This document shows positions 31,849-34,299 of a stretch of DNA of 64,000 bases, piece by piece. The notes beneath the pieces were generated by a model. It did no database searches. It worked only from the letters and a program-made list of their open reading frames with translations, and was not told the DNA's origin. Both the position numbers and the translations under genes were made by a program. How positions within the stretch are numbered: the first letter of the stretch is position 1; the number at the start of each line of letters is the position of its first letter. The stretch lies in contig NC_019703.1 in assembly GCF_000317045.1 (NCBI RefSeq), forward strand, positions 4,286,934 through 4,350,933. Direction: 5' to 3'. Source of the DNA: Geitlerinema sp. PCC 7407 (GTDB lineage Bacteria > Cyanobacteriota > Cyanobacteriia > PCC-7407).

Positions 31849-32268
31849 TTAAAGGTGGGAGATAGAGAGCTTGTAGCTGTACTGGCCCGGGCTGCGGTTG
31901 CCGATGAAGAGGGTGTAGGAGCCCTTGGCCCAGAAGCCAGGCACCTCGACAACACCCCCCGAGAAGCCGTCGGCTTGGACGCAGGTTGTGCGGCCACCGG
32001 CTTCTTGGATCATTAGGGTCGGCTGCCCTTCGCCCTCAACGGTGAAGCGCAGGTTGTCAAAGTCGTCGGCTAGGGTGACAACGTGGCTAGGAGCGATCGC
32101 AATGCTGCCGCACGGGCTGCTCTCCGTGGCGCTGACGGTGCTTTCGACAACCAGCGGATTGGCGGAATTTTCTGTAATGTTGAGGGTTTCAGCTTTTGCG
32201 CTCGTGGCGATCGCTAAGCTGGCGATCGCGGCCGGAACCATCGTCCACACGTGACGGAATTTCATCAT
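31849..32268 (-). CDS. Secreted PPC-like small protein
   Basis: A 139-residue exported protein: signal peptide MMKFRHVWTMVPAAIASLAI ending near SAKAE, then a beta-rich domain. The C-terminal end (FWAKGSYTLFIGNRSPGQYSYKLSIS) has the pattern of bacterial pre-peptidase C-terminal domains, which are small accessory beta-sandwiches. Two Cys residues (SPCGS and TTCVQ) could form a disulphide. The start at tandem ATGs (32268) has an excellent GGGGAGGG site; a longer frame to 32313 is not preferred. Function unknown. Confidence 0.75.
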   Translation of the reverse strand: MMKFRHVWTMVPAAIASLAIATSAKAETLNITENSANPLVVESTVSATESSPCGSIAIAPSHVVTLADDFDNLRFTVEGEGQPTLMIQEAGGRTTCVQADGFSGGVVEVPGFWAKGSYTLFIGNRSPGQYSYKLSISHL

Positions 32269-32487
32269 TACCCTCCCCCATTGCCGAAAAAGCTTGACGA
32301 GACCCAAAATCAAGCAGATTTAGGAATACTCTCGTCCTTAATTTCATCCTAGGGTCGCTCTTTGGGGTTTGGGGAGCCCAGGGTTCAGATCCCTGAGTGT
32401 CACATATCACCCGCCAAAACGCGAGATCGGTTCCACTGGGGCAGGGGTCTCTCGCTAGACTGCTTTCAGAGAGCTCGTCCCACTGCC

Positions 32488-33537
32488 ATGTCCCAATCAA
32501 ACCCATGGATCGCCGTGAATCTTTCAGTCTGCCTGCCTGGGCTGGGCCACATCTACGCTGCCCAGTATCCCAAGGCCGGGGCGTGGTTCCTGGGGACGCT
32601 CGGCTGCGCGCTGCTGGCGCTGCGATGCGTCTTTGCGGCAGAGGGAAATACAGCGGTGGGGCTGTTTTTTGCGGGGGCGGCGGTGGTGGTCTACGCGAGC
32701 TGTCTGCTGGACGCGTACTACTGTCTCTCAGAAGGAGCGCCGCCCGCCTTTCCGCGATCGCGCGATCGCTGGTTTGCTGTCTTTTTGTCCCAGGTGCTGC
32801 CTGGCCTCGGTCACCTCTATCTCCAGCGGCTGGGGCTGGGTGCGGTGCTGATGGTGGCGATGATTGTTGCCAGTAATATAGCCAGTCAGTCAGCGCTCTG
32901 GATCGCAGTGCCGCCGACCATTGCGGCGATCGCCTGCTGTAGCGCCTATCAGGTCAACACGTCGCCCCGCTCTCGCAGCAAAACTCTCATCACAGCGATC
33001 GTGATTTTGCTGTTGGTGGTGCGCCTTGGCGTGGCATCTTTGCCCCTGGCCCTGAATGCGCAGCTTGAGCGATTTGTGGTGCCGAGCGGATCCATGCAGC
33101 CGACCCTGCAAGTGGGCGATCGCATGTTTGTTCGCAAAAGCGCCGCCTACCGTCCTCAGCTGGGCGATCTCATTGTGTTTCGATCGCCCCGCGCAGCTCG
33201 TAGCAGCGCCCCGCAGAGCAGCAGAAACAATCAATCAGAAACCTTCTTTGTCAAACGCGTGATCGGCACACCGGGCCAAACGATCGAGGTGCAGGGAGGG
33301 CAAGTCTACCTCAACGGCCAGGCGATCGACGAACCCTACCTCACCGAAGCACCGCGCTATCGTCTCGCCCCCGTGACCCTCGGCCCTGATCAATACTTCG
33401 TCCTGGGGGACAACCGCAACAACAGCTACGACTCCCATGTCTGGGGGCCGATGAATCAATCCGTCATTGTCGGCCAAGCTTACAAAATCTATTGGCCCCT
33501 CGACCGGAGCCAATCGCTGCTGCCCGAGGACCGCTGA
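32488..33537 (+). CDS. lepB: Signal peptidase I with N-terminal multi-helix domain
   Basis: The C-terminal part (about residues 170-349) is a type I signal peptidase. It has a membrane anchor, the Ser nucleophile Ser202 in VVPSGSMQPTL, Lys256 in FFVKRVIGTPG and the late motif VLGDNRNNSYDSHVWG. It removes signal peptides of exported proteins. Ahead of this lies an unusual membrane domain of about 160 residues holding two related units, each beginning with an LPGLGH(I/L)Y motif (residues 16-23 and 104-111). That domain resembles small TM2-like membrane proteins. The ATG at 32488 is preferred over an in-frame upstream ATG at 32362, which lacks any family match. It is convergent with a beta-barrel-like gene 19 bp away. 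Confidence 0.88.
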   Translation: MSQSNPWIAVNLSVCLPGLGHIYAAQYPKAGAWFLGTLGCALLALRCVFAAEGNTAVGLFFAGAAVVVYASCLLDAYYCLSEGAPPAFPRSRDRWFAVFLSQVLPGLGHLYLQRLGLGAVLMVAMIVASNIASQSALWIAVPPTIAAIACCSAYQVNTSPRSRSKTLITAIVILLLVVRLGVASLPLALNAQLERFVVPSGSMQPTLQVGDRMFVRKSAAYRPQLGDLIVFRSPRAARSSAPQSSRNNQSETFFVKRVIGTPGQTIEVQGGQVYLNGQAIDEPYLTEAPRYRLAPVTLGPDQYFVLGDNRNNSYDSHVWGPMNQSVIVGQAYKIYWPLDRSQSLLPEDR

Positions 33538-33556
33538 CAGTCGCGATCGCAGCTCC

Positions 33557-34078
33557 CTAGAACCGGAGGCCCACGCCACCCTGAAGGGAGACGGCGCTGC
33601 CCCCTTCCCGGAAGCCATTGAAGCCAATGATGGCATTTCCAAAAATCACGGTGTTGCTGTTGGGGACCACATAGTCAATGCCCGGCTGCAGCGCAAAGCT
33701 ATCGCGATTGCCCACCGGAGTATTGCCGCTGACAAAGGCAACGCCAGCGCCCAGATAGGCCGTGGTTTGCCAGTTCAGGGGCAGATCGTAGGAAACCGTC
33801 GGCACGATCGCCGTCCCGTCCCCAATGATGGCCTGGGTTCGCAGAGACACCGGCGCTTCCAGGAGGCGGTAGCGCAGCGCGATCACCCCAGCGATTTCTC
33901 GATCTTCCTCCACGCCGTCACCCTCAGTCAAGCCCACCGAAGGGCCAACGCCGACATAGCTACCGTAGGCTGCCTGGGCGTGACTGGGAGCCTGGACACC
34001 TAGCACCAACCCCGTAGCGAGGGCCACGCTGCTGACCAGGGCTGCGCTAAAACCGAGTCGCTGATTCTGGGGACGCAT
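33557..34078 (-). CDS. Putative outer-membrane beta-barrel protein
   Basis: The 173-residue protein has a clear signal peptide (ALVSSVALATGLVLGV... cut near SHAQA). The rest alternates polar and hydrophobic residues in short beta-strand-like runs (GYVGVGPSVGL-like, VIALRYRLLEAPVSLRTQ, TAYLGAGVAFVSG). It ends in GLRF with a terminal Phe, as in many outer-membrane barrels. Length would suit an eight-stranded barrel. The start ATG at 34078 has a good GAGGAG site. No enzyme motif is visible. Confidence in the fold is moderate. Confidence 0.72.
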   Translation of the reverse strand: MRPQNQRLGFSAALVSSVALATGLVLGVQAPSHAQAAYGSYVGVGPSVGLTEGDGVEEDREIAGVIALRYRLLEAPVSLRTQAIIGDGTAIVPTVSYDLPLNWQTTAYLGAGVAFVSGNTPVGNRDSFALQPGIDYVVPNSNTVIFGNAIIGFNGFREGGSAVSLQGGVGLRF

Positions 34079-34299
34079 CGTTATCAACTCCTCACTGTTT
34101 GTGAAATTCAGCCTGCGGGCCGGGTTTGCCCAGTTCACGGCCTAGCTTGCCGCTGCGACGAACGCTCATCGCGGCTTGCTCCGTGCAACTTAACGACAAC
34201 CACGGCTCTATTCAATCAAATTGACAATTTATTGCCCGTAGATTGTTATCTATTTTGACACTCTCCGGCAGGAAATGAGCGCTTCCTAGCTGATACCTG

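Follow-up and report, generated by a model that had tools for sequence, protein, structure and literature searches.

A patchily distributed type of cyanobacterial signal peptidase with a doubled PGLG membrane module at its N terminus

The closest described relatives of the protein treated here are LepB of Escherichia coli and the cyanobacterial signal peptidases LepB1 and LepB2. The available part of one study reports at least one LepB1 and at least one LepB2 homologue in all four cyanobacteria that it examined (PMC3210150), and the accessible text of another presents it as an open question how cyanobacteria manage protein sorting and maturation in two membranes with a few signal peptidases (PMC6878006). 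A further parallel is SipA of Streptococcus pyogenes, which, according to the available excerpt of PMC4049620, lacks the Ser/Lys dyad, yet is needed for pilus polymerisation; the same excerpt gives roles for Gly272 and Ser278 of the E. coli enzyme. The gene described in this study lies in a window of 64,000 nucleotides from Geitlerinema sp. PCC 7407 ("the window" denotes this whole stretch). It extends from an ATG at position 32488 to a stop codon at 33535-33537 (32488..33537, + strand) and, as judged from its frame, its S26 match and an alignment of 27 fused homologues, encodes a type I signal peptidase of 349 residues with N-terminal tandem membrane modules.

An earlier note on this DNA, made from the letters alone, had called the catalytic half ordinary, and this description is borne out. 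Residues 172-336 match Peptidase_S26 (PF10502) with an E-value of 2.6e-39 and 135.3 bits at a cut-off of 22.9, and the score for TIGR02227 is 119.1 at a cut-off of 47. The predicted catalytic domain (residues 191-345, 33058..33522, +) has a LepB-like fold and can be superimposed on the E. coli signal peptidase 3s04_A with a Z-score of 13.9 and an rmsd of 2.7 over 131 residues, at 33% identity. Alignment identifies Ser202 (33091..33093, +) as the predicted nucleophile, equivalent to Ser90 of E. coli. Lys256 (33253..33255, +) is the predicted general base, equivalent to E. coli Lys145, on the basis of an alignment that is shifted at the edge of the region together with the KRxxGxPG motif. All 27 homologues have Gly307 and Ser313, which correspond to Gly272 and Ser278 of the E. 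coli enzyme. Fold, dyad, these two residues and an anchor helix in front of the catalytic domain (residues 162-183, 32971..33036, +; from the predicted structure and the S26 match, which begins at residue 172) are features common to the window protein, E. coli LepB and the cyanobacterial LepB1 and LepB2. Unlike ordinary type I signal peptidases, the window protein has this conserved part preceded by tandem membrane modules, which comprise about 160 residues.

That these additional membrane residues belong to the protein, as the earlier note had proposed, is supported by the alignment of the fused homologues, in which 25 of 27 have a Met start just ahead of an invariant W7-A9-G18-G20-Y23 block. 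The remaining Met residues of the window protein are at positions 122 and 125 (within a helix of module 2), 203, 213 and 322, so that no Met is usable between the membrane part and the active-site loop. As far as Met starts are considered, a translation start after the membrane part is therefore unlikely. The span 32488-33040 assigned to the membrane part in the earlier note does contain both modules, but its end also includes the ordinary anchor helix. The gene stands alone between two genes on the opposite strand (31849-32313 and 33557-34138, both -), neither of which matches a Pfam family at E up to 0.01; by eye, the proteins of both have signal-peptide-like starts. A promoter scan of 32200-33700 found no candidate, with 0.5 expected by chance, and is uninformative.

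The membrane part consists of two modules with the same order of predicted helices, namely, a short helix, a PGLG turn, a second short helix and two long helices. Module 1 (residues 6-78, 32503..32721, +), which is defined by the predicted structure and by homology to module 2 and to free-standing modules, has predicted helices at residues 6-15, 19-23, 27-49 and 55-78, and contains the motif LPGLGHIY (residues 16-23, 32533..32556, +), of which G18, G20 and Y23 are invariant in 27/27 homologues. A Lys/Arg-rich linker, which is probably cytoplasmic, follows (residues 79-93, 32722..32766, +); residues 79-94 have on average 3.37 Lys plus Arg versus 1.48 Asp plus Glu per protein in the 27 homologues. 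Module 2 (residues 94-155, 32767..32952, +), assigned by profile homology and predicted structure, has predicted helices at 94-103, 107-111, 115-134 and 141-155 and contains the motif LPGLGHLY (residues 104-111, 32797..32820, +) with P105, G106 and G108 invariant in all 27. It is followed by the anchor helix and the catalytic domain. The mean pLDDT of the full-length prediction is 87.9, and the membrane part predicted alone has the same helix order at a pLDDT of 90.4.

For a comparison of the two modules, profiles of residues 4-85 and 92-160 were built from the 27 fused homologues. The hhalign score of module 1 versus module 2 is 73.1 (probability 98.39, E 7.2e-15, 38 columns), compared to a maximum of 16.8 for 100 column shuffles of module 2 and 8.9 for the reversed profile, and when a module is compared with the anchor helix or with the catalytic domain, none of the four scores reaches 14. 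A chance likeness of the two LPGLGH motifs is thereby ruled out. The sequence alignment covers the first 38 columns; beyond them, in its second half, module 2 is matched by the predicted helix order only. The internal duplication recognized in the earlier note is thus real; it is supported by sequence for the module's first half and by predicted structure for its full length. Lys and Arg cluster at the N terminus and in both linkers, whereas the tips of the two helix hairpins have few of them; together with the prediction this suggests that the N terminus, the PGLG turns and the linkers are cytoplasmic. A sequence search of solved chains with the module profile gave no match at E up to 1. When the module model was compared with solved structures (63 chains examined), the best hit was a receptor with Z 6.1 and an rmsd of 12.8, which is taken as no match within this set of chains.

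The module had been suspected to be of the TM2 or DUF5683 type, and a domain search supports this. DUF5683 (PF18935) is matched at E up to 0.01 by 26 of the 27 fused proteins (best E 3.5e-08), DUF6677 (PF20382) by 17 and TM2 (PF05154) by three. The window protein itself remains just below the Pfam cut-offs: it reaches 22 bits versus 26.7 for DUF5683 and, as a whole, 23.8 bits versus 24.3 for DUF6677, while residues 1-196 alone reach 25.9, and the DUF6677 match spans just 30 residues of module 2. It is absent among the TM2 matches at E up to 1. Module 1 resembles all three families in starting with PGLG(H/Q)xY and ending with DA(Y/F); the difference lies in the presence of two modules in tandem and their fusion to a peptidase. 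The module also exists free-standing, as a single copy in short proteins of genomes from another class of the same phylum. A profile of seven such free-standing modules matches module 1 with a probability of 99.44 over 82 columns (maximal score of shuffles 26.9) and module 2 with a probability of 97.95 over 36 columns (maximal score of shuffles 17.1). A search of the own genome for free-standing copies of the fused-type module to E 10 retrieved only the window gene itself. Three single TM2 genes are present there, and one of them, encoding a TM2 plus SHOCT protein, lies about 0.9 kb away from the gene of an ordinary signal peptidase (G000:C1:138648-138806, -; locus L114, 3391-3819), a proximity that is possibly due to chance.

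The fusion of module and peptidase is recurrent. In the class survey, 10 of 39 genomes, including the own genome, contain a fused match that is either near full length or truncated at the end of a contig. In the phylum survey the membrane part was matched at E up to 1e-5 in 35 of 291 genomes; 21 of these are the own genome or members of the same class, and the other 14, from outside the class, have partial, single-module matches. Three of the 21 have damaged copies, with internal stops in G172 and G206 and a cut frame in G130. The family f30, perhaps the Nostocaceae, has matches in 23 of 217 genomes. Among named genomes, a pattern search that was narrow, so that a non-match does not mean absence, yielded 44 stretches, 32 of which encode a relative; all 32 are in records with cyanobacterial titles, e.g., Leptolyngbya, Spirulina, Microcoleus, Halomicronema and Phormidesmis. 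A scan of genome contigs with the single window protein as query gave no match. The literature search, judged by titles and the openings of abstracts, retrieved no paper treating a fusion of a signal peptidase with a PGLG module.

Besides the window gene, the own genome encodes two ordinary full-length S26 peptidases, and at least two full-length ordinary enzymes accompany the fused one in 23 of 24 chosen genomes; G340 shows one. As both LepB1 and LepB2 were found in all four cyanobacteria mentioned above, and the ordinary enzymes are retained, the fused type is an extra peptidase. Taken together, the fused protein represents a conserved, patchily spread cyanobacterial subfamily and a recurrent third peptidase, and not an isolated fusion. 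The patchy presence and the broken copies indicate that its role is dispensable. The distribution also bears on the sorting or membrane-targeting role that the earlier note had suggested beside substrate recruitment. In this view the modules would direct the peptidase to the thylakoid or to the plasma membrane, and the proteins processed would differ between the two compartments. Compartment-specific peptidases are plausible because LepB1 and LepB2 of cyanobacteria are described in the available parts of two studies as non-redundant and their location as disputed (PMC6878006, PMC3210150). However, most of the surveyed genomes lack the fusion and two ordinary peptidases are already present, so that compartment sorting cannot generally depend on it, and we regard this explanation as improbable.

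Several remnants of peptidase genes were observed. Three S26 signal peptidase fragments, interrupted or flanked by stops, lie within a 5.3-kb stretch of the own genome, outside of the window (G000:C1:2768466-2773743, -), and are perhaps decayed tandem copies. The cut gene of G130 (L061/L133) ends after about 144 residues, with a frame downstream that is, by eye, transposase-like. The remnants in G206 (L067) and G172 (G172:C1:2286096-2286326) contain several stops, and the genomes have sizes of 2.8-3.0 Mb; G168, which has the same genus code and a genome of 4.8 Mb, has an open copy of the fused gene.

Clustering of the neighbours of 39 loci, several of which are short or cut and some of which represent the same genome twice, revealed sharing only at the level of lineages, and no partner emerges. 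The commonest family, by eye a short-chain dehydrogenase-like protein, occurs at 8 of the 39 loci, and at this frequency no operon partner is named. At L057 and L139, both of family f30, a similar protein, by eye HD-hydrolase-like, is encoded beside the fused gene.

The phylogeny was analyzed with 71 catalytic domains, 50 from fused and 21 from ordinary enzymes. Forty-one fused proteins, including that of the window, are split from the rest with a support of 100/99, while the other nine group with the ordinary enzymes. A second tree with 46 rows has the same split (100/100), and the branch of the window protein is thus set apart from the ordinary cyanobacterial enzymes with full support. The best trees need two changes between the fused and the ordinary state, and a single change is found in 24% of the bootstrap trees; a tree in which the ordinary enzymes are held together is not rejected (p-AU 0.447). 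A single fusion event is therefore possible, though the trees would fit one or more origins.

An unexpected feature of the fused type is the repeated loss of the catalytic dyad. It was scored in 66 fused rows, which comprise 60 distinct rows plus L121, L134, L135, L136, L137 and L138; the pairs L058/L117 and L075/L076 are more than 97% identical. Loci with a contig end, runs of N or a missing first module (L013, L014/L101, L063, L083, L097, L104) and those with cut frames (L061/L133, L139) were left out, and in one of these, L063, Ser and Lys are intact. Both residues are present in 48 of the 66 rows. In the remaining 18 a dyad residue is lost, by exchange of Ser for Ala in 13 cases and for Thr in one, and of Lys for Ser, Asp or His in four. 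All Ser-to-Ala proteins belong to family f30 (L057, L058, L059, L117, L120, L122, L124, L126, L127, L129, L131, L137 and L138). The exchange recurs in 13 rows with several genera codes, and sequencing errors are an unlikely cause. In the branch of the window protein all 41 members are intact, whereas 18 of the 25 others are without one dyad residue. The control set of ordinary enzymes is intact in 49 of 49 readable loci (L154, the 50th, is unreadable). On the tree the pattern needs at least five changes at the Ser position and at least three at the Lys position, with gains and losses not told apart.

Most of the Ser-less pairs that were compared are, as far as can be judged from substitution rates, under purifying selection. 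Across 12 Ser-to-Ala pairs, which overlap and several of which have a dS near saturation, dN/dS of the catalytic domain is 0.09-0.22 in 11, and undefined in one. In the modules it is 0.10-0.30 in 10 pairs, 0.56 in one with very few changes (L058/L117), and again undefined in one. For pairs with an intact dyad the values are mostly 0.05-0.31, and two close pairs are higher, up to 0.65. The Lys-less pair L135/L136 has values of 0.64 and 0.87, based on few changes, and L134, which also lost a dyad residue, is split by a stop; these cases look like decay. The values for the modules are also relevant for the idea that a spare peptidase simply acquired a hydrophobic domain, which has since been retained as a functionless passenger. 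Such neutral accretion would fit the patchy occurrence and the damaged copies, but across 27 diverse homologues the motifs of the modules do not vary, and the dN/dS of the modules is well below 1 in most pairs. This constraint already disfavours neutral accretion, which we regard as very improbable.

The loss of the dyad raises a further alternative, namely, that members of the family act in essence as binding or assembly factors embedded in the membrane. Their work would be done by the doubled module together with the peptide cleft, and catalysis would be optional, as in SipA; the window copy would then cleave only incidentally or narrowly. The contrast between 18 of 66 fused and 0 of 49 ordinary enzymes, the multiple changes on the tree at both dyad positions and the low dN/dS of the catalytic domain in 11 of 12 Ser-to-Ala pairs all speak for it. 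Like the dyad-less relatives, SipA has a signal-peptidase fold without the dyad and is nonetheless needed; the window protein differs in that Ser202 and Lys256 are both present, and SipA, in the portion of the source available, is encoded in a pilus locus and is without such membrane modules. Furthermore, every loss lies outside of the branch of the window protein, some losses resemble decay, and the first Ser of the PSGA motif might in principle serve instead. For the window protein this alternative is conceivable, but we think it rather doubtful.

The explanation that we prefer, with a probability of roughly 55%, is that the window gene encodes an accessory, probably active signal peptidase, and that its doubled module forms a platform in the membrane on which substrates or a partner dock. 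This third type I signal peptidase would have its N terminus in the cytoplasm. In each PGLG module, a short helical turn is predicted to re-enter the membrane from the cytoplasmic side and to precede two membrane helices. In a geometric reading of the predicted model, both modules would, together with the usual anchor helix, build a compact membrane platform. The catalytic domain would be located on the far side, where the Ser202/Lys256 dyad would cleave signal peptides. The platform most likely holds a subset of substrates, or a partner, and presents it to the catalytic domain.

Given the loss of the dyad in relatives, the core function may be something other than cleavage, even in the window protein. 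Repeated dyad loss together with the constraint in most Ser-less pairs makes it conceivable that binding, rather than cutting, was the ancestral or core role. The fused family as a whole might then consist of membrane-embedded signal-peptide-binding factors that have the doubled PGLG module as their core, with proteolysis as an option that was repeatedly lost under continued selection. We offer this only tentatively and hold it to be unlikely; if true, the family would serve exported or membrane proteins as a chaperone or as a retention factor, with the window protein as a version that still cuts. The loss of the dyad in some relatives that retained the protein hints at a separate task for the membrane part. 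A third type of peptidase that is equipped with its own membrane platform and has natural relatives without a nucleophile would be a ready genetic tool that offers the scaffold with and without catalysis, and the fused type may be a lead on the role of the very common, uncharacterised PGLG module.
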